Virus record (IMG/VR): IMGVR_UViG_3300009506_002262
Coordinates: 1-20,928 of that record
Source: a virus
DNA: 20,928 bases
Reading direction: 5' to 3' (one strand)
In this document: one piece after another, positions 2,209 through 19,893 of the stretch
Layout of the letters: every line of letters starts with the position of its first letter
How positions within the stretch are numbered: the first letter of the stretch is position 1
The notes under the pieces: model-generated
What the model was told of the DNA's origin: nothing
Databases searched by the model: none
Seen by the model: only the letters and a program-made list of their open reading frames with translations
Made by a program: the position numbers and the translations under genes

Positions 2209-2640
2209 CTAGAACGAGATGATCCCCGAGGCGTTCCACGCGATGGTCACGTCGCCACCATTCGGGGTGAGCGGCAGACCGGTTGCGGTGTCCCATGCAC
2301 ACAGCAGAGGACTGGTCGTGTCAGTGCCCGTGTCCTTGAACATCACGATCCACTCGGACTGATCGCCCGTCAGGGACGTGAACACGGTATCGGCGGCATC
2401 CACCACGCCCGCGCCCACGGAACCGATGGTGACGGTGCCGATGGCCGGGGCAGAGGCAAAGGCCGGGACCTGACCTGCTGATGCGATGTCAGGGTTGACG
2501 TAGGTGTCACCGACGACCGGAACGTCGTCCGTGGCATCCACGAAGAACACGCTGATGGTGTCGGTGTCCCAGTCGGGCACGGCGTACGTCCCCGACCCGA
2601 ACACCACATTGCGGTATGCGGTGAAGATGAAGTTAGCCAC
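2209..2640 (-). CDS. Small phage virion-type protein, 143 aa
   Basis: The frame starts at GTG 2640-2638, with AAGGAG ten bases upstream, and overlaps the preceding gene by 8 bp. The sequence opens MANFIFTAYRNVV and includes WDTDTISVFFVDATDD. It ends with a GLPLTPNGGDVTIAW stretch (from about residue 121). This pattern (short N-terminal helix, a D-W-D-T-D-T-I strand, and a final P-N-G-G-D strand) is one I associate with small proteins near phage head and tail genes that have no assigned function. It is probably a beta-sandwich virion protein such as a decoration or head-tail joining protein. The function is inferred from neighbours. Confidence 0.8.
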   Translation of the reverse strand: MANFIFTAYRNVVFGSGTYAVPDWDTDTISVFFVDATDDVPVVGDTYVNPDIASAGQVPAFASAPAIGTVTIGSVGAGVVDAADTVFTSLTGDQSEWIVMFKDTGTDTTSPLLCAWDTATGLPLTPNGGDVTIAWNASGIISF

Positions 2641-3058: not shown

Positions 3059-4042
3059 CTAGTTGGCCCCGATGCTGGACGCGGACTCGATGCGGCAGTA
3101 CTTGGAGCCGACGTTGGTCAGCAACTTGGCTCCGAACATGCCCTTCCAGCCGACGATCGCCTTCTGGGCGAGCGGGTCGGTGTGGTCACCGCCGGGGCTC
3201 ACCATGTAGGCGCGGATCGACTGGAGGTCACCGAAGGCCCACGCATCCGGTCCGAAGACGAAGGTGGAGTACACGTCCACAGTCGCTCCAACACCAGCGT
3301 CGGCAAACAGGTTGGCGACGTTCGTCTTGAAGAACTTGACGCCCATGTACTCCCCGACCTCTCCGGTCAGGAGGCGACCCGGCTGGGCGTACTTGCTCAC
3401 GTCGGTCCACCCACCGGTTGCCGTGTCGGCCTGCAGGTCGAACAGCACCATCGGGTTGATGAAGGCGTGGTACGTCCCGTCCGGGAAGCGCGGGATGTTG
3501 GCCTGCTCGAGGAGAGCAGCCGCCCGCCGGATGTCCGTTCCGACGAGGTTGTGGGTCGAGGCCACCGTGGCCCGGGACGTTGCGGCCCCGGAGTAGATGA
3601 CCCGTGCGGTCCCTGCATGCAGGGTCTCGCCGCACCAGAGGTCCACGGTCGAGGCGGCGTTGCGGGCGACCCGCTCCGCGGCGACCGAGAACAGGCGGTG
3701 AGGAGACTCGGCCATGGCCACGTCGCTGACTGCCAGCGTGCGGCCTGCCTGATAGACCGTGTACTCCTCGTACCCAATCGCCATCTCCTCGTCCGTGGGC
3801 GGTGCGCCCTCGGTGAGCCACGGGGTCGTGCCCGCTGTGACGGTGTGGGCGTTGGTCGTCACGGACATGTCCGCGATCGAGATGTGACGCACGAGGTTCG
3901 TGCCGGGGATCAGGTCCCCACGCACGTATGCGCCGTCCTGCATGTAGACCAGATTGTCCCGCAGGTTCCGGTCCAGCATCCGCAGGACCAGAGCCGTCAC
4001 GGTCTGGTTGAAGTTGGTGGTTGCGGTCGTCAGAGTTGCCAC
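3059..4042 (-). CDS. Major capsid protein, N4-gp56-like family
   Basis: The product has 327 residues, within the usual size of HK97-fold major capsid proteins of the N4-gp56 family. It starts at GTG 4042-4040; the upstream Shine-Dalgarno match is poor (TTGGGG only). Family-like features are the early TPWLTEGAPPTDEEM segment (about residues 73-87), followed by a strand and V-Y-Q-A-G-R-T-L-A-V-S-D, the long helix HRLFSVAAERVARNAASTVD, the FPDGTYHAFINPMVLFDL strand region, and GEVGEYMGVKFFKTN towards the C terminus. It follows a scaffold-like gene and is followed by a hairpin, the standard arrangement for phage heads. The family call rests on pattern recognition, not a search. Confidence 0.88.
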   Translation of the reverse strand: MATLTTATTNFNQTVTALVLRMLDRNLRDNLVYMQDGAYVRGDLIPGTNLVRHISIADMSVTTNAHTVTAGTTPWLTEGAPPTDEEMAIGYEEYTVYQAGRTLAVSDVAMAESPHRLFSVAAERVARNAASTVDLWCGETLHAGTARVIYSGAATSRATVASTHNLVGTDIRRAAALLEQANIPRFPDGTYHAFINPMVLFDLQADTATGGWTDVSKYAQPGRLLTGEVGEYMGVKFFKTNVANLFADAGVGATVDVYSTFVFGPDAWAFGDLQSIRAYMVSPGGDHTDPLAQKAIVGWKGMFGAKLLTNVGSKYCRIESASSIGAN

Positions 4043-4090: not shown

Positions 4091-4699
4091 TTACCCCTTG
4101 ACTGACGCCTCGAACTCCGGGGAGTACTTCCTCAGATCGGACTCCAACTCCTCGACCGACTTGTCTTCCTGAGACTTCGGTGGAGCAGTAGAGCCACGCT
4201 TCGGGGCCGACGGGTCAATGGGTGCGGGTGGTTCCTCACCACTGCTCAGACGAGCGTTCAGAGCGGCCAACTTGGCCTCATCCATCGCGGCCAGAACGTC
4301 CTCGTCCAGAGCCTCGGCAGCGTCCGCGTACTTGACACGGCGCGTGTCGAGAACTCGCTGACGACGCTCGGTCTCGATGGCCTGATCCTTCTCAGCCAAC
4401 TGCTGACGAAGGCGCTCGACCTCGCTCAAGTCTGAGCCCTCACGCTGTTGCCTCTCCGCTTCCATGGCCTGCAGCCGACGGTTCTGCTCGTCCAACTGCT
4501 GGCGTAGGGTCGCGGTCTCGGCAGCATGTGCGCGATCTTTCCCAGCGACCCGGTTCTTCCAGATGGCTTCCACCTGCTCGACCGATTGAGTCGGCTCGCC
4601 TTCGTCGCCAGTCGGCTCGCCCTCGGGGGCGGGGTCCTGTGGCGAGGAAGTGGCCTCGTCAGTCGGTGGGGCGGGATCGGTAGGCGATCCTTCCGGCAC
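4091..4699 (-). CDS. Capsid scaffolding-like protein, 202 aa
   Basis: It starts at GTG 4699-4697 with GAGGAG at 4712-4707, seven bases upstream. The N terminus (residues 1-40) is Pro-, Glu- and Asp-rich and disordered. Residues about 45-115 form a charged coiled coil (for example LRQQLDEQNRRLQAMEAERQ and VERLRQQLAEKDQAIETERR). The C terminus is short and mixed-charge, with VEELESDLRKYSPEFEA. This composition and the place directly upstream of the major capsid gene are typical of phage scaffolding proteins, which guide procapsid assembly and then leave. No protease domain is visible in it. Confidence 0.85.
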   Translation of the reverse strand: MPEGSPTDPAPPTDEATSSPQDPAPEGEPTGDEGEPTQSVEQVEAIWKNRVAGKDRAHAAETATLRQQLDEQNRRLQAMEAERQQREGSDLSEVERLRQQLAEKDQAIETERRQRVLDTRRVKYADAAEALDEDVLAAMDEAKLAALNARLSSGEEPPAPIDPSAPKRGSTAPPKSQEDKSVEELESDLRKYSPEFEASVKG

Positions 4700-4790: not shown

Positions 4791-7700
4791 TCAGCGCACT
4801 GTGGGCTGGAACTGAGGCACCTGCGGCTGCTGCCCGGGCGTCTCCGGCGTTCCGCCGAAGACACCACTCAGCGTGTCCGTGGCCTGCTGGAACACGTCGC
4901 CGCCAGCCTCCTGCAGAGCCCCGACGGCGACTCCCAACTGCTGGGTGGTGTAGGCCGGGCCGAAGGCATAGATGAGCATGTCGGTCACCGTCTGCCCGAA
5001 CTGCTCAGGGCTCATCAGGTCCTTCTGGATGCCCTGCGCCTTGGCGTACTCGTGCTCGGCTGAGGCCTCGGCCAGCCGCCGCGACCAGAGCGGGGCGTTG
5101 GCCGGGATCTCCCACGGCAGGGCCGGGGTCAGCATCGACACAAAGTGCCACAGCCCGTTGTTCTCGATCATGGCCTTGCGGAAGTTCGGGTCGAAGTTCT
5201 GCTGCAGCATGATCTGGCGGTAGACCGCGTTGGACAGCGCCAGCCCACCGAAGGGGGCCGGGATGCCGAACGGGTACTTCACGAGGAAGCGGACCATCTC
5301 GGGCAGCACCTTGCCCCACATGTACGACGACGGGTAGAGGCCGAAGTAGGGATGGTTGACGCTGCGCTCCACGAACGAGCGACCGCGCTTGTAGTACTGG
5401 GTGGTGAAAGCCTGCTCCTCGGCACGCGACACGGCGAAGCGGCCTGCCTGATAGACGGCCTCCTGCTGCGGATCGAAGGGCACACCCATCAACTGGCCGG
5501 AGTTGGGCCGGGTCTGCACCGGGGGCTCGCGCAGAATCTCGCGGAACGCCTTGCTCACGTCATCGCTGACGGCAGGCTTCGGGCGACGACCCTTTGCACG
5601 CACCGGGAGCGCCCTTGCGTTGTCCAGATCCTGCAGCGCCTTGCGCTCGGCAGCGCGGGCCTCCTGCACCTTGCGAGCCTGCGCCTTGACCGCCGCCCGG
5701 GATTCAGCCGCCACCTTCTCGTGGGTCTCCAGCGGCGTGCGCTTGGCCGCGCCCCGCACCTTGGCCCCGGCGTCGGCAGCGGCCCTGTGAGCCTTGACCG
5801 CCTGCTTCTCGAGGTCAGCGATCTCGTCGGCCAGTTCGAGGACCCGCGCCTCCTGCCGGTGCAGCGAGGCGGTCAGCCCGCCCGCTGAACGGCCACCCTC
5901 CTTGATCTTGGCCGCGGTCAACTTCGTCTCGGCCCTGAGCGTGCGCAGCAGAGCCTTCTGTTCCTTGATGGCCTCGGTCAGGCGATCAGCGGTCTGCTGC
6001 GCCACGAACTGGCGCTGGATCAGGTCGGCGGATGAGGTCTTCGACCGGGCAGAGATCAGTGCCCGGTTGGCCGTGTTGCGCTTGGCGCTCAACTTGGCCA
6101 GTTCGGTCTCAGCCTTGCGTGCCGCCCGGCTCGCCTCGGTCGCCGTCGTGCGAGCCTTGGCGATCGCTGCCGTGCGAGCCTCAGCCGCGGCCTGCCGCCG
6201 CTCCGCGGACCAGACCGCATCGTTCGTCCGACGCAGCATGTTGCGGATGTACTCCAGCGCCGGGCGCAGGTCCGGGGAAACGCCCTTCATGCCGCTTTCG
6301 GCAGCCTGCATGAAGGCCTCCACGAACCACTCGGAAACGCCCCGGTGCCAGATCGTGGTGCTGTGGTTGGTCTCGGCGTTGTAGATGCCGATGAGCGTCT
6401 TGCGCATGGACGGGTCCAGCGTGGCCTCGATGCCGTGGACAATCTCGTGCAGGACGGCTTCCTTGGTGGACTTGTCGGTCAGCAGCATCAGCCGCCGTGC
6501 GTCCTTGAGCAGGACGTTGGCCCCCAGAATCTCGCCATCCCGCTGCATCCACAGCGCGAGTGCGCTCGGGCGCGGGAAGGCCGCACTCTTGCGAGCGTCC
6601 AGCGCCGACGCCACCTGCAGGGCGGACATGCGCTGGTTGTCGAGCCCGGCGATGCCCTTGGTCATCACCATGTGCGGCTCCACGATCCCGCGCTGACGGT
6701 CCCACAGGAACCACTGGTACTGGCCATTGCTCCACGAGCGGATGCGCTCTCCAGCGGCTCCACCCACCGTGTCGGCCTCGGCCAGCCGCACCTCGGTCAG
6801 GTAGTCGTCCCAGACCTTGTAGTCGCCACCGTAGGTCAGCAACTGCGGGCTGTCCTTGCCGCCCGAGTAGAGCCCGACCAGCCGCAGCACTTCGTCATCG
6901 TCGTACAGCGCCCTCATCTCGTCGGAGATGTCCGCGTTGTAGAGCCGCCGCCGCATGTCATCGACCGCCTCCCGCACGACCTCGGGGTCCTCACTGCGCA
7001 GACGAGTGCGGATGTCCCGGGAACCGGGCAACGGGATACGGCGCACTTCGGGTGAGCGGAACTGGCCGTCCCGGATGAGATTCGAGCGGATGTCATTGGC
7101 CAGCGTCTCGCTGCTCTGGGACAGCAACCGGTCGAGATCCCCGTTACGGGATGCCCGCTGCACCAGCGCCCGCATGGTGTGCGTGTCCAACACCCCGTGC
7201 AGCGCCTCGCGGGTGCCAGACATGAGGACGGTCATCTGCCCCGTCTTGGCAGCCAGCCCGGGCGTGACGGTGGCCATGCGCAGGGCCCAGTCGCTGCGGG
7301 CCTCGCCGTTCTGTACCCGCATGAAGTTGACGAGCCCTTCGGATTCCCGCGCCCGGCGCGAGAAGGGACCATCGGTCAGCCACAGGGTGGCGTTGCCCAT
7401 GGCCCGATAGGTGCTGGCGTTGCGAGCCGTGGTGTTCGGGTTCTGCAGCGCGAGGAAGGAGTCGCTGATCGGGAAGGGCAGCACCTCGATCCGCTCTGCG
7501 ACAGCCCGCCGGTTCTTGGCAAGGACGATCTCGTCGGGTCCACCGGTGGGGTTCTTCCCGTTACGGATGGCCTGCTGGACGAAGCCCTTGGTCTCGGCCT
7601 CGTTCATGCCGCGGGTGTTGCGCACCATCCAGTCGAGCGCATCAGCGGTCTCCTCATCGAGGTAGTTGATGGCGTCGTCCATGCCGCCCACGTAGCGGAA

Positions 7701-10700
7701 GTCGGACCAGCGTCCCGCATCCAGCAGATAGCCCTGCTGGATGGCCTGTGCCCGGCCCAGCGCCAGCGGATCTGTCCGCAGATGGGCGTACTCCGGCGGG
7801 ATCAGGCCCGCCACGCTGTAGGCCTTGCCCTGCACGGCATCCAGCGCTCCACCCGGGTAGATCGTGTCCTCGTTGGCCCGCAGCAGGGACCACAGCCCCT
7901 CGCTCAGGTTGATGTCGGTCTGCGGAGTGAGGGCCGCGAACAGCATCTTGTTGAACTGCACGTCGGGCGAGTTCAGGGCGACGTTGGCCACGTACTTGGA
8001 GGGGAAGATGCCGCGGTCGTAGATGAGCGTGGCCAGATCCGGGTTGACCCGGAACAGGGCGTCGGCGTCGATGCGCTGGGCCCGGAGCATGACCTGCTCG
8101 CCCAGCGAGTAGGGGTTGTACAGCGAGGCGGGATCGCGCAGCAGGCGATCGACCCCGCCGGGCAGGACTACTCGGAGGCGGCTGGACCCTCGGGTGGTGA
8201 GGGCGGGGTTGAGGGCGTCGATCCCTCCTCGCCCGGCGAGGTGGGCGGTGGCGGGGTTGTCGGGCGCGACCCCACGGACAAGCCCGGCAAGGTGCTCCCG
8301 AGCCTGAACGCCTGTCCGACCTGCCAGTTGTTCGGCTTCCGCGGTGCGCCCGAGCCCTCGGAGGGTGTCGAGGTGTCCGGCTCCGTCGGCTGCTGAGGTC
8401 CAGTCATTCCAACTCTCCACGACTTCGACGGGGAAGAAGTCTCCCTCGAGACCCCACTTGGCTCCCCACGCCTTGGTCATCCCATGGTAGGCCTTGTTGT
8501 AGATCTCGTCACGGAAGTCGAGGCGGTGCGGCATCGACTTGGAGAACTCCTCGGGCAGGATGACCCGGATCGCCAACTTCCCGTTCTGGGCCCGCACGAT
8601 GGTCGCACCGGTGTCGGTCAGCGGGTGATCCTTGGTCATGCGAATGGCCTCGTCCAGTTCGGAGACCATGCCCAGCATCTCGGTGTCGCTGTAGTTGCGA
8701 GCCGTCGTGCGGAACTCGATGGCCCAGCGCTCGGTGGCCGGATTCTGGATCTCGCGCAGGCTCTCGTTGATGCGGACCACCCGCGAGCCCAGCACGCCCG
8801 ACTGCTGGTGGAGGTAGCCCAGCGCCGCGGTGGCAGCCTGCACGTCCTCCTTCGACCCGGCGAACTCAATAACCGCACTGGGTGAGATCTCCAGCGCCTG
8901 CGTGTCCGGGTTCCACCACCAGCCAGTGCTGGAGCGCATCTCGAGCGGCACGGCTCCGGTGAGATCCGAGACCTGCTGCACCGTCCAGCGCGAGAACGCA
9001 TCGGTGACCTGCCGCTGCTGGGCGAGGTCGAGGCTGTCCCACGCCATCTCGCTGGCGTACTGCGAGCCATAGCCGGGCGAGACCTCGACCGCGATCTGGG
9101 CGGTCGGGGCTCCGCTGGACACGTCCACGGTCTGCATCGGCTCGACCCGGCGCAGGGTCTCGTGCCACTGGTAGGGCATGAAGTCCGCCGCCTCCTGCAA
9201 CTTCTGCAGGTAGGCCACGTCGTCCAGCGGCTTCCGCACGGTCGGCAGGCTGTGGTACTCCCAGCCCAGTTCGTTGGCCATCTGGTTCAGTGCCAGATCC
9301 AGCGCCCGGGCATCGACCCGGTGAACGTCGATCTCGGGCGCGTAGTCCCGGGCCCACGCCTTGAGCGACTGAGCGAACTCATCCTGCAACTGCCGCCAAC
9401 GGGCGTCGATGACCTGCCGCAACAGGGGCAGCGGAACATCCGGGTCCAGCCCCAGCGCGATCATCTGTGGCGTGAACCAGCCTCCCTCGGGCCGCACCAT
9501 GATCGAGGTGCGGTTCGGGCCAATGGACGCCATCTGACGGGCGTTCATGCGGATGCCCATGAGGATGTCGGCGGGCGAGACCCCCACATCGTCGGGATGG
9601 TTGTGCCAGAAGGCCTTGTCCTTGCCCAGCGTGTCGATCCAATCCTCGGGGATCGGGTCGATGTGCGCGTCCAGCGGGTAACCGCGCAGGGCCAGCGGGC
9701 GCTCGTAGATGCCCTTGTTGGTGATGATCGGCTGGTCCACCCCCTGCGTCCAGTTGGAGTAGTGCTGGGTCCGGGCCACGATGGCCCCGCTCTCATCGGT
9801 CAGCACGGCATGCTCGCGCATGGCGTACTCCACGTTGTCGGCCCAGTCCATGAACTCCTGCGTGCCCGGGATCTGGACCCGGTTCAGGCTGAGATCCAGC
9901 GCGTCATCGGTCACGTCGGCCATGAACAGGAACGCGCTCCGCTCGGCGGCAGACAGGCCGCGCAGGTTGTCGCTGGTGGCTCCCATCGGCACGTCCGCGA
10001 AGACCCGGTGCAGGAGTTCGTCCTCGGTGATGCCCATGACGTTGGCCCGGGCCTGCCAGATCCGGCGCACGTTGCGCACGAGGTTGGTGTTGCCCTTGCC
10101 CATCAGGTCCTCGATGGAGGACCAGAACTCGGCAGGCTTGTTGTAGGGGTCACCGACGGTCACCCCCACCCGCCGTGCGAACTCGGGGTCGGCTCCCAGA
10201 TCGGTCAGGGTCTGCTCGACATCCTGCCGGGTCACCTTCCCGTCGCGGACCAACCGCCACAGGCTGGCTCCGCTGTCGGCCCCGGGCACGTTGTCCTTCA
10301 CGATCTCGGCCACCACGTCGAGGTCGATGATGCTGCGAGCACCCAGATCAGAGGGCTTGATCCCGTCCAGCAGCCCGACATTGCGCGAGGGACCGCTCAG
10401 TGCCCACTGGGTCTTCTCGGTCATGTAGCGAACGGCGATCTCGCCCCAGTCCTGCGTGGCGTAGGTCGCCTCCAGCACCCCGTGCAGGTTGGGCTGGATA
10501 CGAAGGATGACCTCCTCGAACTCACCGCCCAACTGCTGACGAGCCAGCCGGGCATAGTTGATCTGCTTGACCCGCTTCACGTCCAGCCGGTCGCCCAGCG
10601 TCAACTTCTGGGCCCAGCGTCCCAGCCGCGACTTCGGCCCGAAGCCCTCCCGGGAAGCGACCTTGCCCCACAGCACCCAGTTGCCACGCTCGATCTGGTC

Positions 10701-13628
10701 ATCGAAGGCGTACTTCGACTGGCGCAGGATCACGTCGATCAACTCGATCGTGCGCTGGTCCAGTTCGGAGGCAACGAACCCGGGCTTGATGCCCCGCATG
10801 GCGTTGAGGACGAAGGGCTCAGTGAACTCCATCAACTGGAAGATGGGGGAGTACACGAAGCGGACCATGGGGTAGATCTTCTCCGCGATCTGGCCCAGCC
10901 AGTTGTGCTGCCCACCCAGCGCCGTCTTGGCATAGCCGGTGAACTTCTGCGTGACGCCCACCTTCCAGAAGTTGCCCTCGAAGGCGTGCATCAGGGCCTC
11001 GATGGCCTCTCGCGGCGTCAGCCCCTGCAGCACCTCGTCGCCCAACTTGGCGGTCGTGAACAGGTTGTAGATCCGCTCGGCGCTCAGGGCCCGCGGCGGG
11101 AACCCGGCCTCCTGTGCCGCCTTCACGACACGGGCGAACAGGGCATCCGATTCGCCCCCGGTCAGCCCGAAGCGCTCGGCGTTGAACCGGGCGAAGCGCT
11201 CCCGGGCATCGGCCATGATCCGCTCGCCGCGGACGTTGTGGAACAGCCGGTCCTTCTCCAACTGGAGCCGGGTGTAGGTCGGCACCTCGGCAGCCACGTC
11301 GGTCACATCGACCCACGGGTTGACCCCGATGATCCGCCCCTCGGCATCCTGCGTGACCCGCCACAGGCCACTCTCGTCGGGCTTGTAGCCCAGCCGGTAG
11401 CCGATGTCGGCGTTCTCCTTGCGCCAGCGCTCGATCTGCTTAGGCAGGTTCACCTTGGGGCCGATCTCACGGGTCAGGCCCCCGGCCTTGCGCTGCTCCT
11501 CGATGAGGGTGCGCACCTGCTTGAGCAGGTCGGCGTCCTCGAGGCGACCGCCGATGTTGTCGAACAGGAGGTCGTACGTGTTACGGGCTTCCCGTACGGC
11601 AGATACGTCTCCCCGCTTGACGGCATCAAGGACTACTTCCGCTCGTTGCGTAGTCAGTTCCCGGGGACCCAGCAGCGTGAGGCGTTCGAGATCCACCTGA
11701 CCGGGCTTCACCGGCTTATTGCTCGCACCCAGTGCGCGCTTTGCCCGCGTAAGGGCACTGGAGAAGGTCTGCTGGGTGTGCCCGAAGTAGATCGCGTCTA
11801 TGAGCGCTACGCCCTGAACGTCCAGACTCTCCGAGACTCGTACGAGTTCTGCGTCATTCGCAGTCGGGAACATACGCCGCATACGGGCGAGCGCCTGCTC
11901 CTGCGCCCGGGCCAAGGCCGCCGCCGTCCCACCCCGGACCTCCGGGAGATAGCGAGGCTTGACCCGCATGGCACGCTGCTCGATGGCAGTCGCCATGTCA
12001 CCCCCGCGCAGGCCCTTGAGACGTGCGGCGATCTCCTCCTCGGGGAGGGCCCCCGGCAGGCGATAGGCCTGCCGCACGTCCTTGACCACCTCGCCCCGGA
12101 TCACGTTGCGGGTCAGGAACGAGGCATAGGTGCCCATGCCGCGGTCGAGAATCCCCACGTCGGCACCGGCACTGGACAGTTCGTTGCGAAGGGCGGTCCA
12201 CGTGTCCAGCCCGTAGGCCCGGATCGCGCCCTCGGTAGTGTGCGAACTGACCAGCGCGTTCGTCATCTTGGCCGCACGATCACCACCGAACAGGATCTCG
12301 AGCGGGTTGTTGAGGCGCTGCACCACGGCGTTCACGCCGCGGATCGACGGCTCCCAGACATCCACGAAGTCGGCGTAGTAGTTCCCGGCCTTGACCGCCT
12401 CGGCGTTGGCGGCGATGTCCTTGTCCTGCAGCAGGAGCCGGATGCCCTGCGCCTGCACGCGACGATCGGTGGCCTGCAGGATGGACGCCTCGTTGAGGCT
12501 GATGCCGCGGGCATCCGCGATGTGCTGGGCTACCCGCTCGGCAATCCCAACCGCATCGTCCCCGAAGACCGAGAAGAAGGTCGAAGCCCGGGCGGCTGCC
12601 ACGCGAGACGCGATCTTGACCGCCCCACCAAAGCCCAGCGAGCCGACGATGAGCGGATCGGTGCCCACCGCCAGCAGCATGTCGAAGACGCCCTGCGCAG
12701 TGAGGAGCCCTTCCTGTGGGACATCGCTGTACGAGCGCAGGATCTGGTTGTTGACGGCGATCTCGGCCTTGATGGCACCCCGGAACTCCTCGGTGCCGGG
12801 CGTCCCGAAGTCGCCCCGGCGAGCCCGCTCCGCGACCTGCCAGTAGAACGAGGGAGCCGCCCCGCCCTCGGGCCGCGGGATGCCCGGGTTGCGGCCCATG
12901 GCGTACTGCTCCACCGCGTCGATGGAGTCAGAGGCGATCCCGAACTCCAGCAGCCCGCGCTGCACGAGGCGGCGTCCGTAGTCCAACTGCTCCAGCAGGT
13001 TGCTCGACGGGCCAAAGGTGCTGAACAGCCCGGTCGCTCGCCCGGCTCGCACGTCCTGCTCCCACTGGGTCTGCGCCACGCGCGAGAAGCCGAGGATGGC
13101 GTTGATCGGGCTCTTGGAGATCTCGTCCATGTAGCGCTGGATGAAGACCGGATCGTCCTTGTGCTCCAACCACGTCGGGATCGAGGAGACCACGCCGATG
13201 GGCGCACCCAGCACGTTGCCCGCGGTCTCCAGCGGGAAGTCCACCAACCCGCCGAGGAAGCGGCCCACTCCGCTGATGGGCTCGACACCGGTAAGGCCCC
13301 CCAGTCCGCCGAGCAGGTTCGTGAAGAACCCGCCCGCCTCCTCCGGCGCGGGCTGAGGGGCAGCCTCGGTTCCGGCGAACTGGGCATACGGGTTGGCCCG
13401 GCCCGCCTCGAACGACGGGGCACCCACCAACTTGAGCGGGAACTTCCCGATGTTGGCGAAGGGCCGGTTGCGGTTCGGAGCCCAGTCGCCCGCGGGACCC
13501 GGGATGGGCTCGCTGCTCTGGGTGGACCGTGCCTTGCGCAGGTACGAGACATCCGGGCTCGAGCCGATCAGGCTGCTGGCCGAAACGAGCGGCAACTGGC
13601 CCTGCCGCTGGGAGACCTGACCGGGCAT
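4791..13628 (-). CDS. Giant multidomain virion protein (polyvalent-type), 2945 aa, with JAMM-like and zincin motifs
   Basis: One uninterrupted frame of 8.8 kb starts at ATG 13628-13626, directly after the stop of the upstream gene, with GAGG eight bases upstream. In order: Gly-rich hydrophobic stretches at about 95-152 and 313-345 that could be membrane-active; a KIYPMVRF segment at 917-924; a JAMM/MPN-like set at E1272, H1342-x-H1344, S1351 and D1354; a low-complexity linker at about 1741-1821; an LDTHTM motif at 2147-2152; a zincin motif HEIVH at 2394-2398, with E2433 or E2437 as a possible third ligand; an Ala/Lys/Glu/Arg-rich coiled coil at about 2475-2685; and a C-terminal domain from about 2750 with KVLPEMVRF at 2773-2781. 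Size and mixed peptidase-like domains resemble phage polyvalent or internal ejection proteins packed in the head and delivered with the DNA. The exact function is unknown, and a role in the tail or portal is an alternative. Confidence 0.85.
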   Translation of the reverse strand: MPGQVSQRQGQLPLVSASSLIGSSPDVSYLRKARSTQSSEPIPGPAGDWAPNRNRPFANIGKFPLKLVGAPSFEAGRANPYAQFAGTEAAPQPAPEEAGGFFTNLLGGLGGLTGVEPISGVGRFLGGLVDFPLETAGNVLGAPIGVVSSIPTWLEHKDDPVFIQRYMDEISKSPINAILGFSRVAQTQWEQDVRAGRATGLFSTFGPSSNLLEQLDYGRRLVQRGLLEFGIASDSIDAVEQYAMGRNPGIPRPEGGAAPSFYWQVAERARRGDFGTPGTEEFRGAIKAEIAVNNQILRSYSDVPQEGLLTAQGVFDMLLAVGTDPLIVGSLGFGGAVKIASRVAAARASTFFSVFGDDAVGIAERVAQHIADARGISLNEASILQATDRRVQAQGIRLLLQDKDIAANAEAVKAGNYYADFVDVWEPSIRGVNAVVQRLNNPLEILFGGDRAAKMTNALVSSHTTEGAIRAYGLDTWTALRNELSSAGADVGILDRGMGTYASFLTRNVIRGEVVKDVRQAYRLPGALPEEEIAARLKGLRGGDMATAIEQRAMRVKPRYLPEVRGGTAAALARAQEQALARMRRMFPTANDAELVRVSESLDVQGVALIDAIYFGHTQQTFSSALTRAKRALGASNKPVKPGQVDLERLTLLGPRELTTQRAEVVLDAVKRGDVSAVREARNTYDLLFDNIGGRLEDADLLKQVRTLIEEQRKAGGLTREIGPKVNLPKQIERWRKENADIGYRLGYKPDESGLWRVTQDAEGRIIGVNPWVDVTDVAAEVPTYTRLQLEKDRLFHNVRGERIMADARERFARFNAERFGLTGGESDALFARVVKAAQEAGFPPRALSAERIYNLFTTAKLGDEVLQGLTPREAIEALMHAFEGNFWKVGVTQKFTGYAKTALGGQHNWLGQIAEKIYPMVRFVYSPIFQLMEFTEPFVLNAMRGIKPGFVASELDQRTIELIDVILRQSKYAFDDQIERGNWVLWGKVASREGFGPKSRLGRWAQKLTLGDRLDVKRVKQINYARLARQQLGGEFEEVILRIQPNLHGVLEATYATQDWGEIAVRYMTEKTQWALSGPSRNVGLLDGIKPSDLGARSIIDLDVVAEIVKDNVPGADSGASLWRLVRDGKVTRQDVEQTLTDLGADPEFARRVGVTVGDPYNKPAEFWSSIEDLMGKGNTNLVRNVRRIWQARANVMGITEDELLHRVFADVPMGATSDNLRGLSAAERSAFLFMADVTDDALDLSLNRVQIPGTQEFMDWADNVEYAMREHAVLTDESGAIVARTQHYSNWTQGVDQPIITNKGIYERPLALRGYPLDAHIDPIPEDWIDTLGKDKAFWHNHPDDVGVSPADILMGIRMNARQMASIGPNRTSIMVRPEGGWFTPQMIALGLDPDVPLPLLRQVIDARWRQLQDEFAQSLKAWARDYAPEIDVHRVDARALDLALNQMANELGWEYHSLPTVRKPLDDVAYLQKLQEAADFMPYQWHETLRRVEPMQTVDVSSGAPTAQIAVEVSPGYGSQYASEMAWDSLDLAQQRQVTDAFSRWTVQQVSDLTGAVPLEMRSSTGWWWNPDTQALEISPSAVIEFAGSKEDVQAATAALGYLHQQSGVLGSRVVRINESLREIQNPATERWAIEFRTTARNYSDTEMLGMVSELDEAIRMTKDHPLTDTGATIVRAQNGKLAIRVILPEEFSKSMPHRLDFRDEIYNKAYHGMTKAWGAKWGLEGDFFPVEVVESWNDWTSAADGAGHLDTLRGLGRTAEAEQLAGRTGVQAREHLAGLVRGVAPDNPATAHLAGRGGIDALNPALTTRGSSRLRVVLPGGVDRLLRDPASLYNPYSLGEQVMLRAQRIDADALFRVNPDLATLIYDRGIFPSKYVANVALNSPDVQFNKMLFAALTPQTDINLSEGLWSLLRANEDTIYPGGALDAVQGKAYSVAGLIPPEYAHLRTDPLALGRAQAIQQGYLLDAGRWSDFRYVGGMDDAINYLDEETADALDWMVRNTRGMNEAETKGFVQQAIRNGKNPTGGPDEIVLAKNRRAVAERIEVLPFPISDSFLALQNPNTTARNASTYRAMGNATLWLTDGPFSRRARESEGLVNFMRVQNGEARSDWALRMATVTPGLAAKTGQMTVLMSGTREALHGVLDTHTMRALVQRASRNGDLDRLLSQSSETLANDIRSNLIRDGQFRSPEVRRIPLPGSRDIRTRLRSEDPEVVREAVDDMRRRLYNADISDEMRALYDDDEVLRLVGLYSGGKDSPQLLTYGGDYKVWDDYLTEVRLAEADTVGGAAGERIRSWSNGQYQWFLWDRQRGIVEPHMVMTKGIAGLDNQRMSALQVASALDARKSAAFPRPSALALWMQRDGEILGANVLLKDARRLMLLTDKSTKEAVLHEIVHGIEATLDPSMRKTLIGIYNAETNHSTTIWHRGVSEWFVEAFMQAAESGMKGVSPDLRPALEYIRNMLRRTNDAVWSAERRQAAAEARTAAIAKARTTATEASRAARKAETELAKLSAKRNTANRALISARSKTSSADLIQRQFVAQQTADRLTEAIKEQKALLRTLRAETKLTAAKIKEGGRSAGGLTASLHRQEARVLELADEIADLEKQAVKAHRAAADAGAKVRGAAKRTPLETHEKVAAESRAAVKAQARKVQEARAAERKALQDLDNARALPVRAKGRRPKPAVSDDVSKAFREILREPPVQTRPNSGQLMGVPFDPQQEAVYQAGRFAVSRAEEQAFTTQYYKRGRSFVERSVNHPYFGLYPSSYMWGKVLPEMVRFLVKYPFGIPAPFGGLALSNAVYRQIMLQQNFDPNFRKAMIENNGLWHFVSMLTPALPWEIPANAPLWSRRLAEASAEHEYAKAQGIQKDLMSPEQFGQTVTDMLIYAFGPAYTTQQLGVAVGALQEAGGDVFQQATDTLSGVFGGTPETPGQQPQVPQFQPTVR
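8168..8407 (-). other. Candidate nested out-of-frame ORF inside the giant gene, 79 aa, Pro/Ser/Thr-rich
   Basis: In the +1 frame relative to the giant gene, ATG at 8407-8405 opens a 79-codon frame that ends at TAG 8170-8168. GGAGAG at 8418-8413 lies five bases upstream of the ATG, a good ribosome binding site. The product starts MTGPQQPTEPDTSTPSEG and is otherwise Pro-, Ser-, Thr- and Gly-rich, with a short NNWQVGQAFRLG core. In the first half its codons end in G/C more often than those of the overlapping giant frame, which here uses gaa, caa, gca, ctt and cgt. It may be a real overlapping gene, the remains of a linker whose frame was changed by two compensating indels, or chance. Confidence 0.3.
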
Positions 13629-16115
13629 CTACGGTGCCTCGGGCAGATTCGGCCTGATGTTTCCACCCGGGGTGTAGATGTTGTCCGGGACGTACACGTC
13701 CGGCACGGACGGCGTGACGATCCCCACATCCGGGCCTTCGGGCAGGTGCTGCGGCGTGACCGGGCTGGGCGTCGAGGTCGGCAGGTTCGGCACCTTGATC
13801 TGGCTGGACGGCGGCGGGGGTGCGGGACCGATGGCCGGGATCGGGAAGTCCACCCCGGTCTGCGAGCGCACGTAGGACGAGAGCGTCTGTCCGGGACCAG
13901 TGAGCGGCAGGCTCTGGATCGGGTTGAGCAGGCCCTCGGGCACGTTGATCTGCCCGGCATTGGGACCCTGCTGCTGGACCATCCACGGGTTGCGCTGGCG
14001 GTAAGTCGAGGTCACCAGTTCGGAAGCCCGGTCGCGGTAGTACTTCTCGTTGGCACGGGTGACCTCGGCAGCCACCGTCCCGAAGCGGGCCTCGCTCGGC
14101 AGCAGGTCCGGGTTGGGTCCCTGCCGCAGCGGGTTGCTGATGGCCTCGTAGCCACGCTGCTCGTAGACATCCGCGTAGCGCTGCTCGCGCCCGACCGGGG
14201 TCGCCGTGCGGCGGGCCTCGTAGTTGGCCTGCCGGGCCGCGAGGTTGCGCTGCTCGGTCCAGCGATCCATGGCCGACGCCCCCTGCTCCGGGCCGTACAG
14301 CAGCAGGAAGACGCTGGCCACCTGCGTCGGGTTGGCCTGCAGCAGGGACTGCCGGGCCTCGGGCGAGTTGGCGTAGAAGGCGGTCATGGCATCGTCGTAG
14401 ACCGTCTTGTTCTGGGCCCCGCGCAGATCCGCGTCGTAGAGCGAGGGGTCCAGCAACTGGGTCACGTCGAAGCCGCCGGGAGCCTCGCCCACCCACTGCC
14501 CAGTGGTCGGATCGAACTGGGCGTTGGAAGGGATGGCCCACTGCACGTAGAGCGCCCCGTCCGCCGAAGGCGTGATGTTGACCGTCCCGCCCTGCGGCGG
14601 GTTGCGGAACGGGTTGCGGGCGGTCCACGCCATCTGGCCGTCACTGCCGAAGATCCCGTACAGGCGCTGGTTGCCGACGCTGTAGGTGTAGCCCAACAGG
14701 GTGTCGTTGCCCGCCGTGACCTCAGCCGTGGGGCGACCGGTGCGCGGGTCGATGTTGGTGCCGCCCTGCGCGTAGATGGGCTGCAGGGGCACCCAGATGG
14801 GCTGCACGCTGTTGCGTCCCATGGTCTGCATCAGGACTACGCCCTTGGTCGGGTCCTGCGCAGTGGCATCGGTGACCGAGACCAGCGCGTAGGCCGACCC
14901 GCCACCCTCGACCGGCTGCATGGCGAACAGGAAGCGCCCGGACTCCACGGAGTCGATCATGGAGGTGTAGGTGGCCACGTCGTTGGCGATGGCCCCGGCA
15001 TCACTCAGCCCGGCGAACTCACTGCCGGTGCCACCCTCTGGCCCCTCACCGCGCAGCGCGGTCAGTTCGTTGGCCAGCATGCCGCGGTCGATCTCGTCCA
15101 CCATCGTGGAGCGAGCCTGCGAGACGGCCTTGGTGTAGTTCTCGTACGCCGCCCGGTCAGCGTACGGGTCGTTGATGGTGTTGGCCGACAGGGCCGCGTC
15201 CAGATCGGAGCGGGCCTCGCTGTAGAAGCGCCACTCGTCCAGATCCTGCCACTTGTTGGCCGTCACGTTGAAGTCGGCCAGTTCCTCCTCGGCCTTCTTG
15301 CGCCCACTGGCGTCGTCGTACTGGGTGGCCAGATCCCGACGGCTGCGGATGCCGGAGCGCTTCTGCTGCGAGAGGTCGAGGAAGACGCCGTAGTCGAGGT
15401 GGTCGATGCCGACCTCGTGCAACTGGGCCCGCAGCCCGGCGAACTCGGGGTCGGTATCGAAGGACTCGATCAGTTGCAGGAAGCGGGCATTGTCGTTCTC
15501 GTCCCCGTTGCGCAGGTCGGCCAGATCCTCGGGAGTCCCGAAGGAGGAGACGCCCAAGATGCCCTTGGTGCGGGCTGCCGCGGTGAGGGCCGAGACCACC
15601 GTGTCGTAGGCCCGCTCGTAGCGGTCGTAGGACGACATGACCGCGGAGTTGTAGGCCGCCTGCTTGTTGGCCCTTGCGCCGGATGCGGCCCGGGCCTTGG
15701 CCGTGTCGAGGAACTGGGCAGCCGAGCGCATCAGGGTGCGGTAGATCTCCGAGTCCTTCGGCATCTTCGCGGCCCACTCCTTGTAGAAGTTGGCCATCTG
15801 GACCTCGTTGACCTTGTGCTCCGCGTACTTGAGCGACATCTTCGACTCCTCGATCGAGAAGCCGTAGGTCAGCAGCAGGTTGTCGTAGTAGTCCCACAGC
15901 GGGTCGGACTCGGACAGCGAGTCGCGCCGGTTGCGCAGGAAGTCGAGGAGCATCTGGTCGGTGACCGGCTTGCCCTCGAACTCGCCCCCGTTCTTCCATG
16001 CGTCAACGATGTTCGAGTCCTGCCGCGCCGCCATCTCGCGGGCGAGCGAGACGATGACGGAGGCGAGTGAGGGTGCGGTACGCGGCAGCCGACCAAACCG
16101 ACCGCTACGGGCCAT
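13629..16115 (-). CDS. Large probable virion protein, 828 aa, Pro-rich C terminus
   Basis: It starts at ATG 16115-16113 with GAGG seven bases upstream. The stop is immediately followed by the ATG of the giant gene, so the two are probably translated in tandem. Residues 1 to about 370 are mostly helical and charged (for example AHKVNEV-type segments). Residues about 390-545 are beta-rich and Gly/Asn-rich, with SGRFLFAM and TLLGYTYSVGNQRLYGIFG. Residues about 560-730 are helical again. From about 740 the chain is Pro-rich, with VPNLPTSTPSPVTP near residue 778. No catalytic or membrane motif was recognised. Position between the portal cluster and the giant protein suggests an internal virion or portal-associated protein. 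Confidence 0.82.
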   Translation of the reverse strand: MARSGRFGRLPRTAPSLASVIVSLAREMAARQDSNIVDAWKNGGEFEGKPVTDQMLLDFLRNRRDSLSESDPLWDYYDNLLLTYGFSIEESKMSLKYAEHKVNEVQMANFYKEWAAKMPKDSEIYRTLMRSAAQFLDTAKARAASGARANKQAAYNSAVMSSYDRYERAYDTVVSALTAAARTKGILGVSSFGTPEDLADLRNGDENDNARFLQLIESFDTDPEFAGLRAQLHEVGIDHLDYGVFLDLSQQKRSGIRSRRDLATQYDDASGRKKAEEELADFNVTANKWQDLDEWRFYSEARSDLDAALSANTINDPYADRAAYENYTKAVSQARSTMVDEIDRGMLANELTALRGEGPEGGTGSEFAGLSDAGAIANDVATYTSMIDSVESGRFLFAMQPVEGGGSAYALVSVTDATAQDPTKGVVLMQTMGRNSVQPIWVPLQPIYAQGGTNIDPRTGRPTAEVTAGNDTLLGYTYSVGNQRLYGIFGSDGQMAWTARNPFRNPPQGGTVNITPSADGALYVQWAIPSNAQFDPTTGQWVGEAPGGFDVTQLLDPSLYDADLRGAQNKTVYDDAMTAFYANSPEARQSLLQANPTQVASVFLLLYGPEQGASAMDRWTEQRNLAARQANYEARRTATPVGREQRYADVYEQRGYEAISNPLRQGPNPDLLPSEARFGTVAAEVTRANEKYYRDRASELVTSTYRQRNPWMVQQQGPNAGQINVPEGLLNPIQSLPLTGPGQTLSSYVRSQTGVDFPIPAIGPAPPPPSSQIKVPNLPTSTPSPVTPQHLPEGPDVGIVTPSVPDVYVPDNIYTPGGNIRPNLPEAP

Positions 16116-16380
16116 CCCAGTCCTCGTCTAGGTTCATGCGCATGTAGGTCCCCACTCCCGACTGCCAGAAGGAGTTGCCACTGCTGGTGTTGCTGGTCGT
16201 GGTGAAGGGCCACGGCTGCGGCTCCGGCGCGGGAGCGGCACTCGGAGCCGGTGGCCGTGGCGGCTGGGGCGGGAGCCCAGCCAACTTGGTCTTCGCAATC
16301 TCGCGCTCGGGCTCCGTGCCGTGTGCGGCCATTGCCTCCAACTTCTCACGGAGTGTGCGCATATCAGCCATTGGGGCCAC
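16105..16380 (-). CDS. Small hypothetical protein, 91 aa (or 88 aa from ATG 16371)
   Basis: The longest frame starts at GTG 16380-16378, but ATG at 16371-16369 and ATG at 16362-16360 are equally good starts; no clear ribosome binding site decides between them. The gene overlaps the portal stop (by 17 or 8 bp) and the next start (by 11 bp). The N-terminal part, MRTLREKLEAMAAHG through EREIAKTKLAGL, looks like a short helical hairpin and vaguely recalls the DUF2786 N-terminal pattern. A Pro/Ala-rich linker follows, then an acidic tail NLDEDWDGP. Tight coupling on both sides supports it as a real gene. Confidence 0.7.
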   Translation of the reverse strand: MAPMADMRTLREKLEAMAAHGTEPEREIAKTKLAGLPPQPPRPPAPSAAPAPEPQPWPFTTTSNTSSGNSFWQSGVGTYMRMNLDEDWDGP

Positions 16381-18307
16381 CCACCGGGACGCTGCTGACG
16401 AGGCGGTTGGACGCTTCGCCGCCCTGCACCAGCGTCTGCGACTGGATCGGCTGCTGCGGGCCGGTCAGGTTCTGGCCCTCGGGCGTGTTGGAGGGCTGGG
16501 CCTCGGGCCCAAGCCGCGGCTGCTCTCCGGGGCCACCGTTCATGGAGGGAACGCCCTGACGGCCTCCCAGCAGACGGCGGAAGTTGGCCAGCGACTGGGC
16601 CTGAGCCTGCACCTGAGCCTGCGCCTGCGGGCTGGGTGCATAGCCGAGGTTCTGGAGGACGGCCATCAACTGGGCCATGACCTGCACCCGCTCCGGCCAG
16701 ATCGAGGCATCCGTGGACTCGCCGCGGATGATGTCGCTCTCCGACTCGGGATCGTCCACGCCCACGTGGTCCATGCCGCGCTTCTGGCTCCACAGCCGAC
16801 CGGTGACGAGGTTGGTGGCCATGACCGCCGTCTCGGCATCGTCACGCGGGGTGAGCGACGGAGCGACCAGATCCAGACGGGCCACGCCCGACAGGACCGG
16901 CTTGAGTTCGGTCACCTTGCGGGCCCAGATGTTGGCAGCCAGCCCCCACAGGTCACGCCGCCACTGGTAGAACAGGTCCCGCTTCATGCGGATGCGGGCC
17001 TCGTAGTTGGCGACCAGCGCCACGATGGCCTTGGACGAGGACAGCACCTGCGCCGGGGCCAGCCCGCGCAGCAGGTCGTTCAGGCCCGAGATGTCGGCCA
17101 GTTCGCGGTCGAGGCGGGACAGGAGCTGCTCGAGTTGGAACTCGGGCATCCACGGCTCGATCTTCTCGACCCGGTTGCCCGCGCCCGGGGCGGTCACCTT
17201 GTTGGGCTTGGGCACGGCGTTGGAGGGCACCACGTCGGGGGCCTCCGGGCCGGTCAACTGCCACAACTGGCCGTCGATGGTGCGCTGCATCATCTGCGAG
17301 CCAGCCGTGACGCGCTCGTCCTTCTCGCGCAGGATCGACTCGATGTCATAGAGTTCCGGTCGCCCATCGGGCAGCCCGGGCACGTAGGTGTTGAACAGCG
17401 GGACGTAGGGCATCTTGCCCTCGTACTCGGGATGGCGCTGGTTCTTCACCATCACGTTGCCGACGAAGATGCAGTTCCACGTCTCGTGCTTCACTCCCTT
17501 ATATGCCCGACCCTTGGGCTTGGTGCGGACCGGGCGCTTGTACCAGTAGTCGTAGACCTCAACCTCGAGCCCCATCTGGCCCAGCCAGTTGCGGGCCATG
17601 GTGGTCAGGGTCGGGTACTCGCCGGAGGGCTGCACGAAGGGGATGATGGTCCCGTCGTCGCGGGTGAACTCGTTGACCTCCAGCCCCCACTCCTCGTACA
17701 CGCTCTGGGCGGACTGGGTGTAGGTGTACAGGCACCAGTCGAGGCGGGTGTAGTCACTGGTGCCCCAGCCGAGGTACAGGTTCCGCGGCTGGTCGATGAT
17801 GCGGACGATGGGACGGTGCTCGTCGCTGTCCCAGTAGACCTTGGCCGCGGTGCGCCCATACAGGCCCTTGACCACACAGGCCTGATGGCTCTTGAGGTCC
17901 AGATTCTCCTCGGCCTTCCACGCGAAGTAGAGCCGTTCGGCCAGCGCGGCACTCTGGCGGCCCTCGTCGGTGGGGATGGTGGCGACCATGTTCTCGACCG
18001 GGGGCACGCTCTGCAGCGAGGCCGGGACATCGACGTAGACGGGGGGCACGTTGATCGAGACGTGGGAGCGACCGGGGGTGGTCGCGGTCGGGTGGTGGGC
18101 CCAGTGGCTGGCTCCCGCATGCTCCAGCACGTCGGGCGGGTAGTAGAGGGTGTCGAAGCGGTCGCACATCAGCGCGAAGCGATCCATCTCCGGCTGGATC
18201 TCGGACTTGCGGTCGCTGATCTCCTTGAGGAGGTCGGCTTCCTCGTCCGTCGCGTAGGTCCGCGCCAACTGCGTGGCGCTCCGAATGTCCAGATAGCGAA
18301 CTGCCAT
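16364..18307 (-). CDS. Phage portal protein, 647 aa
   Basis: It starts at ATG 18307-18305, 5 bp after the terminase stop; GGAGG at 18323-18319 is eleven bases upstream. The protein opens with a helical region and has an early FDTLYYPPDVLEH segment. The middle contains MPYVPLFNTYVPGLPDGRPE and YDIESILREKDERVTAGS, a strand-then-long-helix pattern typical of portal proteins. Helices around residues 420-455 (SSKAIVALVANYEARIRMKR, then DLFYQWRRDLW) fit the stem and crown region. The C terminus carries a QAQAQVQAQAQ tract and a Gln/Pro/Gly-rich tail. Place directly after the large terminase and upstream of the capsid supports the call. The dodecameric portal forms the DNA channel at the head vertex and docks the packaging motor. 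Confidence 0.85.
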   Translation of the reverse strand: MAVRYLDIRSATQLARTYATDEEADLLKEISDRKSEIQPEMDRFALMCDRFDTLYYPPDVLEHAGASHWAHHPTATTPGRSHVSINVPPVYVDVPASLQSVPPVENMVATIPTDEGRQSAALAERLYFAWKAEENLDLKSHQACVVKGLYGRTAAKVYWDSDEHRPIVRIIDQPRNLYLGWGTSDYTRLDWCLYTYTQSAQSVYEEWGLEVNEFTRDDGTIIPFVQPSGEYPTLTTMARNWLGQMGLEVEVYDYWYKRPVRTKPKGRAYKGVKHETWNCIFVGNVMVKNQRHPEYEGKMPYVPLFNTYVPGLPDGRPELYDIESILREKDERVTAGSQMMQRTIDGQLWQLTGPEAPDVVPSNAVPKPNKVTAPGAGNRVEKIEPWMPEFQLEQLLSRLDRELADISGLNDLLRGLAPAQVLSSSKAIVALVANYEARIRMKRDLFYQWRRDLWGLAANIWARKVTELKPVLSGVARLDLVAPSLTPRDDAETAVMATNLVTGRLWSQKRGMDHVGVDDPESESDIIRGESTDASIWPERVQVMAQLMAVLQNLGYAPSPQAQAQVQAQAQSLANFRRLLGGRQGVPSMNGGPGEQPRLGPEAQPSNTPEGQNLTGPQQPIQSQTLVQGGEASNRLVSSVPVGGPNG

Positions 18308-18312
18308 CTACG

Positions 18313-19893
18313 TCAGCGCCTCCGCGGCATCTGCATCACCGTTCCCATGCTCACGGCCCGTGCCGGGAGGGAGTGTACATCACCCCGCCGGGGCAACTCG
18401 GGGCCAAAGTACGACAAGGTGGGGTCGTTGTCGATAGGCTGGTTGCCGATTCTGACCGCCTCACGCACGGCGAGGGCCAGTGCGATGACCGCATCGGTCT
18501 GCAGTTTGCGGTCCTCCAGCCGGTAGCCCAGCAACTGGCGACGAAGGGTCAACCACGCCCCCTCGCGGGGCAGCCGCAGGCGACCCTTCTCGATCATGCC
18601 CTTGAGGTCGAGCAGCAACTTCGTCTTCTTTGAGCGGGTGCCGCCCATCTCCACGGCATGGAAGGGATGCACCCCGCGCAGGAGATCTTGGAAGGTCTTG
18701 CCCCCGAAGCCGGTGGCGTCGAGGTGGGTGGCGCACACGGTATGGCGGGTGTTGAACAGGCGGTGCCCCTCGAGGATGGTGGCGGTCACCGAGGTGGTGG
18801 TCTGGCGACCGGTCTTGCGCCGGATGCGGACCCCGGTCACGTGCAGGGGGTCGGTGATGTCGAGGGTGATGGCGTAGGTCGAGTCGAAGGTGATGGCCGG
18901 GTCCACGCCCTGCGTGTAGCGGTGGTTGCGCTTGGGCAGTTGCTCCGGGGGCAGGTCCTCGGTGAAGGAGGCATCCACCGCCTGTGAGCCGAAGAACGCA
19001 CTGCGCGACTCGATGAATCCGCCGTCGATGTTCTGGGGGATGAGGTATTCGGGCATGGCCTCGACCAGCCGGTTGAAGGTCACCTCGTCCAGCCCGTAGC
19101 CGATGTTGTCGCGGGTGCTCATGCGCAGCGAGTAGTGGCCCGGCTTGCGCTCCGGGGCGTCGGGGTCGCCCTCGAACCAGAGATCCGCGAAGGCGGTCAG
19201 GCCCTCGGTGGCTGTGGAGATCAGGAACAGTTGTCCACCGGTGCCCAACCGGCGCAGGTGGAGAACTTCGTTGACCACGAACTCCAACTGGGGCTCAAAG
19301 GCGCACTCATCGAAGGAGATGCCGTGCATGTCCTTGCCCAGCGAGCCGATGGCCCGCTCGCCGGTGGAGCGGAAGTGGATCTGGGCCCCGCCCAGCACCC
19401 GGTGGAAGACGACCCACGGGTAGTCGCCGTTGAACTTGCGATCGGTCTTGATGACCTCCTTGCCGAGGAGGTCGGTGATCGGGCAGCCGTGGCCGCGCTG
19501 GGCCTCGTGGGTGCCGTTGAAGATGCGCACGATCTCGTGGAACACGAGGTCGGCGGTCTCCTGCTGGATGCCGAAGTGATACCACTCGTAGTCGGTCTGG
19601 GCCCACGCCATCATCTCACGCGAGTTGCCGGGGTTGGGTGGCCGCATGCCCATCTTGTAGACGCAGTTGTGGACGATGAGGATGGCCAGCCCGAGGGTCT
19701 TGCCCGCCCGGTTGCCCGCGCTGATGGCGATGGTCAGGTAGGCGGCTCGCCAGCCCGACGGGGTGCGCATGAGGGCGGTCTTGAAGATGCGCTCCTGCCC
19801 GGGGTGGGGGGTGATGCCGAGGAAGGTCTTGGCAAAGAAGCCTACGTCCCAGCGCCCACGGGCGAGGTTGCGCTGGAAGGCGGCTTCATCCAT
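18313..19893 (-). CDS. terL: Terminase large subunit (packaging ATPase and nuclease), 526 aa
   Basis: The start is ATG 19893-19891, nine bases after the stop of the upstream gene; the ribosome binding site is weak. The ATPase domain has a Walker A motif GNRAGKT at residues 60-66, a Walker B ISFDE at 192-196 (D195, catalytic E196) and a coupling motif LISTAT at 224-229. The RNase H-like nuclease domain has the three expected acidic residues: D331 in GVDPAITFD, D392 in LDATGFGGKT, and D467 in TDAVIALALAV. Length and motif order match full-length TerL proteins. It drives DNA translocation into the procapsid through the portal encoded just downstream and cuts the concatemer. Confidence 0.95.
   Translation of the reverse strand: MDEAAFQRNLARGRWDVGFFAKTFLGITPHPGQERIFKTALMRTPSGWRAAYLTIAISAGNRAGKTLGLAILIVHNCVYKMGMRPPNPGNSREMMAWAQTDYEWYHFGIQQETADLVFHEIVRIFNGTHEAQRGHGCPITDLLGKEVIKTDRKFNGDYPWVVFHRVLGGAQIHFRSTGERAIGSLGKDMHGISFDECAFEPQLEFVVNEVLHLRRLGTGGQLFLISTATEGLTAFADLWFEGDPDAPERKPGHYSLRMSTRDNIGYGLDEVTFNRLVEAMPEYLIPQNIDGGFIESRSAFFGSQAVDASFTEDLPPEQLPKRNHRYTQGVDPAITFDSTYAITLDITDPLHVTGVRIRRKTGRQTTTSVTATILEGHRLFNTRHTVCATHLDATGFGGKTFQDLLRGVHPFHAVEMGGTRSKKTKLLLDLKGMIEKGRLRLPREGAWLTLRRQLLGYRLEDRKLQTDAVIALALAVREAVRIGNQPIDNDPTLSYFGPELPRRGDVHSLPARAVSMGTVMQMPRRR

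Follow-up and report, generated by a model that had tools for sequence, protein, structure and literature searches.

A giant phage protein of probable polyvalent type belongs to a family with a constant carrier frame and differing enzymes

The window analysed here, a virus record of 20,928 bases, encodes a 2,945-residue giant protein that, by sequence comparison, is a member of a widespread family, not named before, that combines a constant carrier frame with differing enzymes. The giant probably represents a new family of polyvalent proteins of the phage type, delivered with the DNA and processed by a zincin, and we judge the family and its chassis-plus-cargo architecture to be new within a known kind, the phage polyvalent proteins. 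A constant carrier with variable cargo was not found described in the literature searched. Coordinates are collected in Table 1.

Table 1. Features of the giant and its neighbours in the window, with supporting observations (counts refer to family members or testable loci).
Feature	Position	Strand	Remarks
Giant protein, probably polyvalent-type	4791..13628	-	2,945 aa, ATG; relatives known
N-terminal chassis (aa 54-1214; blocks Na-Ne)	9987..13469	-	iterated HMMs
Gly-rich, low-charge segment (aa 91-165), possible membrane-active part	13134..13358	-	recurs in relatives
JAB/RadC-like domain (aa 1267-1400): E1272, H1342, H1344, S1351, D1354	9429..9830	-	conserved in 5 members
M1 block (aa 1497-1639), unassigned alpha/beta domain	8712..9140	-	common to 27 members
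M3 block (aa 1888-2129)	7242..7967	-	common to ~14 members
Zincin-like metallopeptidase domain (aa 2302-2465): HEIVH 2394-2398, third ligand E2433	6234..6725	-	motif conservation
Coiled-coil linker (aa 2469-2680)	5589..6224	-	SMC-coil match and alignment
C-terminal signature domain (aa 2717-2892; ERSxNHPYxGxYPxSYMWGKxLPE)	4953..5480	-	all relatives having this part
Terminase large subunit	18313..19893	-	phrog_2, E 2e-15
Portal protein	16364..18307	-	phrog_156, E 1.5e-10
p828, conserved partner immediately upstream of the giant	13629..16115	-	present in 39/52 testable loci
Scaffold-like protein	4091..4699	-	phrog_2303, E 0.0016; same position in 79/81 loci
Major capsid protein	3059..4042	-	phrog_1357, E 1.5e-41; 66/66 testable loci

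The giant is encoded by a single frame whose ATG directly abuts the p828 stop codon without a gap, and which takes up 8,838 of the 20,928 bases (42%), in agreement with an earlier note on this DNA that described one 8.8-kb frame filling more than 40% of the window. Its codon-position GC of 0.67/0.46/0.89 is uniform along the gene, a normal coding composition, and its homologues are 23–37% identical to it; the frame is therefore not a chance one, and its length of 2,945 aa is confirmed. A 2,302-aa frame on the plus strand (9162-16070), antisense to the giant and p828, was rejected as a codon-bias shadow of the minus-strand genes because its codon-position GC is 0.90/0.46/0.66.

Neither Pfam nor PHROGs gave a match to the giant, for most of whose length the earlier note could name nothing; its domain pieces drew chance-level names only from Pfam up to E 10. 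Searches of PDB sequences returned no match of note for the giant and nothing for three profiles. Among the 50,697 cultured-phage records of INPHARED, tblastn found no match for the giant, nor for the terminase, two small relatives and one C-terminal domain, and a direct scan of IMG/VR with the giant's own peptide patterns was likewise negative. Relatives were found by scanning IMG/VR with the terminase and then with conserved blocks. The terminase scan led to 13 related contigs, several with a giant in the same position. Two relatives, G001 (45 kb) and G002 (49 kb), carry short repeats at their ends and appear to be complete circles, and their alignment with the window yielded the C-terminal signature ERSxNHPYxxxYPxSYMWGKxLPE, which matches 83 IMG/VR contigs, or 163 with a broader alignment. 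In genome contigs the narrow signature alignment found nothing and the broad one a single 50-kb contig binned as an Anaeromyxobacter MAG (L106), the only relative from the genome collection, which has the same portal-p936-giant-scaffold order. It may be a whole phage binned with that MAG, which does not prove the host. The G001 giant is split into frames of 1,528 and ~1,375 aa that overlap by ~42 bases (L001 20661-20703 / L014 1-3948) and were kept as separate pieces; sequencing error, a real split gene and a frameshift cannot be told apart here.

Iterated profiles delineate a common plan, in which the N-terminal blocks Na-Ne are followed by a variable insertion and the C-terminal domain, and some members carry a further insertion between Nb and Nc, giving two insertion sites. 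The conserved chassis comprises ~1,150 aa at the N-terminus and ~175 aa at the C-terminus, the Na-Ne blocks being present in 46–69 of ~85 family sequences. The second insertion varies from 127 to 1,903 aa. The smallest member, L094, has 1,275 aa and the longest complete frame 3,148 aa with the same gene order, and one 5′-open frame reaches 3,617 residues. The window groups with L017, L019 and L020 in the chassis tree. In 50 of 58 members the glycine maximum falls within the first 260 aa; the Gly-rich segment of the window is modest, its glycine count being reached in 12 of 500 shuffles. The hydrophobic stretches claimed earlier are weak: a single 19-residue span (aa 314) exceeds a mean Kyte-Doolittle value of 1.4, which demonstrates no transmembrane helix in the giant.

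The insertions hold recognisable enzymes in several relatives, in place of the motif sets of the window or next to them. Found in frame were ADP-ribosyltransferase (ART) domains (4 of 50 records, the best at E 1.2e-12), GNAT (E 3.7e-7), two ParB domains in L054 (E 2.7e-9) and a C5 cytosine methylase in L060 (E 4.8e-30). An ART-PolyVal match in one relative (E 1.5e-5) probably belongs to L019, which shows an ART-like segment. In L060 (G047), at aa ~1400-1600, one search matched the C-terminal part of the methylase profile before the N-terminal part, so a circular permutation of the domain is possible; that contig has another C5 methylase gene at a different place. Exchange of cargo was assessed in the pairs having both parts (L078/L079/L080/L081), and first-insertion comparisons with L070, L084 and L085 were excluded, those frames being 5′-truncated. 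L079 and L080 share 63% of the chassis, and their insertions of 834 and 997 aa align over 7–8% only; L078 and L081 share 65%, with a 1,127-aa insertion in L078 only. Close chassis can thus carry unrelated insertions, and the cargo therefore changes faster than the carrier.

In the window protein the insertion opens with a JAB/RadC-like set, in which the residues E, HxH, S and D stand in the expected order and the motif HNHPDDVGVSPAD spans aa 1342-1354, with HNHP at 1342-1345. As in RadC/JAB proteins, the signature reads E ... HNHP ... S x2 D and the first strand is RadC-like (E, a hydrophobic run, D..G); in contrast to them, the domain is embedded in a phage giant, and its profile score is weak, hhalign against two RadC proteins giving 59% probability over 25 columns, compared with at most 0.7% in 30 column shuffles. 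The same set occurs at the same place in G001, L019 and L020, and more loosely in L017; the JAB-type domain is confined to the small clade of the window. Farther along the insertion lies a gluzincin-type HExxH...E set, HEIVH at 2394 and EWFVE at 2433. Both metallopeptidase-like motif sets reported earlier are present and recur in relatives. HExxH is usual in signature-bearing frames, although some members have none; among relatives having the zincin domain, it is kept in 42 of 45, as is the later Glu. On the chassis tree this zincin type appears as one gain or loss. A sister clade (L059, L061, L063, L065, L067, L075-L077, L082) has another zincin motif, HExxH...SEY...E..AE, in the same region of the insertion. 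L021, L024 and L046 have a long coil as an insert that separates the HExxH helix from the Glu helix, a variation described for polyvalent-protein peptidases (PMC5512222). An SMC-type coil match around aa 2457-2670 of the window protein accounts for the long coiled coil noted before.

Two structure models were examined: model A, window aa 1267-2466 (mean pLDDT 59.8), and model B, the chassis of L058 at aa 467-1666 (mean pLDDT 61.7). In model A, confidence is fair over most of the JAB-like part, whose second half mostly has pLDDT 75-92, and over the zincin part (pLDDT ~70-90), for which three strands, the helix bearing HExxH and additional helices are predicted. Against the PDB (Foldseek, VIA) the matches listed were weak, mostly KH or microcompartment (BMC)-like and to the M1 block; no JAB entry stood among the matches listed for the whole 1,200-residue model and no fold match was obtained for the zincin domain, a search that barely probes either part. 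Motifs, conservation and predicted secondary structure point to the JAB/RadC-like and zincin assignments. Model B is confident over ~residues 110-530 and mostly helical. Among predicted viral proteins its best match, at E 1.3e-9 and probability 1.00, is A0A6J5RYQ7, annotated as a ‘Large polyvalent protein associated domain-containing protein’, though with a low TM-score of 0.1, as the chains are long and flexible; the next match has E 7.4e-4. In the PDB, Foldseek gave model B helical chance matches to argininosuccinate lyase only, and the LPD38 profile (PF18857) matched none of 35 records, with controls equally silent.

The gene order around the giant is nearly fixed. On the minus strand of the window it runs terminase, portal, p828, giant, scaffold, capsid, which confirms the earlier placement of the giant among head genes. 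At loci with enough flank, capsid (downstream), scaffold and p828 recur as counted in Table 1, and upstream the portal is found in 21 of 22 and the terminase in 7 of 8. p828, an 828-aa protein without a known family, is a candidate second ejection protein. A 143-aa protein of unknown function at 2209-2640 (-), matching phrog_644 (E 1.7e-24), has the same place in G001, and an open-ended, fibre-like frame at 2-1600 (-) contains repeated ‘PALLGGATLYxPxV’ units. Past the capsid gene, the late module of G001 consists of small connector-size genes and fibre-like proteins; neither a tape-measure candidate nor a long-tail module was recognised in this complete circular relative, and its gene content therefore suggests that a short tail is likely.

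The term polyvalent protein covers multidomain products of phages and conjugative elements that are encoded close to virion genes, are predicted to pass into the host along with the DNA and in many cases are processed by their own zincins (Iyer 2017, PMC5512222). The giant resembles those of phages (e.g. P1 DdrB) as a large multidomain protein next to virion genes, located among late genes with portal and terminase. Domains of several unrelated activities lie in one polypeptide, JAB-like and zincin motifs in the window and ART, GNAT, C5 methylase and ParB in the family, so that ART, GNAT, DNA methylase, ParB and JAB/RadC-type domains meet in one family, as in phage polyvalent proteins. Motifs and prediction likewise indicate the layout of a zincin MPTase, with strands, an HExxH helix, a Glu helix and a variable insert between the two C-terminal helices. 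In support of the polyvalent reading, the published list has every cargo class found, and the same paper describes the late-gene setting and processing by zincins (PMC5512222). In contrast to catalogued phage polyvalent proteins, the window domains reach no Pfam profile, the links to those catalogues being ART-PolyVal in one relative and the LPD-annotated chassis match; the family is defined by a chassis that is constant at its N- and C-terminal ends and takes up insertions at two sites; and L060 carries a C5 methylase, not an adenine methylase-helicase module. Unlike in the window family, RadC was confined to conjugative-element polyvalent proteins in the published theme analysis (PMC5512222).

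The N4 virion RNA polymerase gp50 (~3,500 aa, with N-terminal, enzyme and C-terminal parts) is an example of such a large protein that is packed in the virion and leaves it by way of a short tail (PMC12633501). It is similarly a giant protein with a central enzyme and a large C-terminal part, ejected with two partner proteins. However, neither an RNA polymerase domain nor sequence similarity to gp50 was found in the window protein, and the cargo of its family differs between phages. No RNA polymerase family was among the matches of the window, 20 whole relatives and 47 insertion segments, and no MuF family among those of the window or relatives, searches that a diverged domain or version could escape. 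By analogy with such systems, the chassis would be packed in the head near the portal together with p828 and ejected through the short tail along with the DNA, serving packing and passage, while the exchangeable enzyme domains of the middle region would target host systems inside the cell as infection begins. In the window this cargo would comprise the JAB/RadC-like and unassigned domains followed by the zincin metallopeptidase, which most likely would cleave the polyprotein into functional parts, either while it is being delivered or afterwards. The earlier proposal of a delivered multi-enzyme is well supported by the fixed place in the head module, the conserved ends, the swappable enzymes and the chassis match; its remaining part, presence in the virion, packaging, ejection, self-processing, catalysis and targets, we infer. 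More tentatively, and with slightly less than even confidence in the whole, we propose a dedicated delivery chassis, unrelated in sequence to the N4 vRNAP, T7 and P1 systems and seen only in uncultivated phages so far, whose fixed ends govern packaging and translocation while enzyme cassettes are swapped at the two insertion sites.

A mainly structural role, as an ejection protein in the DNA conduit like T7 gp15/gp16 or P22 gp16 with enzyme-like segments that are decoration or degenerate, appears unlikely for the giant. It shares with the T7 and P22 proteins a likely packing near the portal and ejection, and its position beside the portal, Gly-rich N-terminus, helical chassis and short-tail-like genome fit such a role, as do L094 (1,275 aa) and L066 (1,454 aa), with short or no recognised cargo. 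However, 42 of the 45 zincin members retain the catalytic residues, relatives have intact ART, methylase and ParB matches, and the cargo is exchanged, whereas the T7 and P22 ejection proteins, to which no sequence relation was found, are smaller and lack exchangeable enzyme cargo. The two readings are compatible, and both can be true. Less probable still, and by a good measure, is that the metallopeptidase is a prohead maturation protease that cuts scaffold or capsid during assembly, which would make the giant a factor in assembly and not a delivered effector. The giant sits where protease or MuF genes are often found, and between portal and scaffold no gene was recognised as a separate prohead protease, but HExxH is missing altogether from some members, ART, methylase and ParB domains would be of no use in assembly, and prohead proteases are typically small separate proteins. 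A tail tape-measure protein is hardly credible, for although great length, a coiled coil and some weak structural similarity (tape-measure entries at E above 0.02, well short of the top match) would suit one, the giant lies between portal and scaffold, upstream of the capsid gene, in all testable loci, G001 has no long-tail gene set, and length varies from 1,275 to 3,148 aa via enzyme-bearing insertions in the same gene order; position and cargo likewise disfavour the outcome that the earlier note had set against its proposal, a tape measure or plain fibre without an enzyme domain.

The giant represents a large uncultivated phage group (163 contigs by one signature) in which a constant giant carrier bears a varying enzyme load. 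The cargo hints at the host systems that may be disarmed at entry, restriction in the case of the methylase and protein modification in those of ART and GNAT. The conserved ends are candidate packaging and translocation signals, a question that giant ejected proteins such as the N4 vRNAP also raise.
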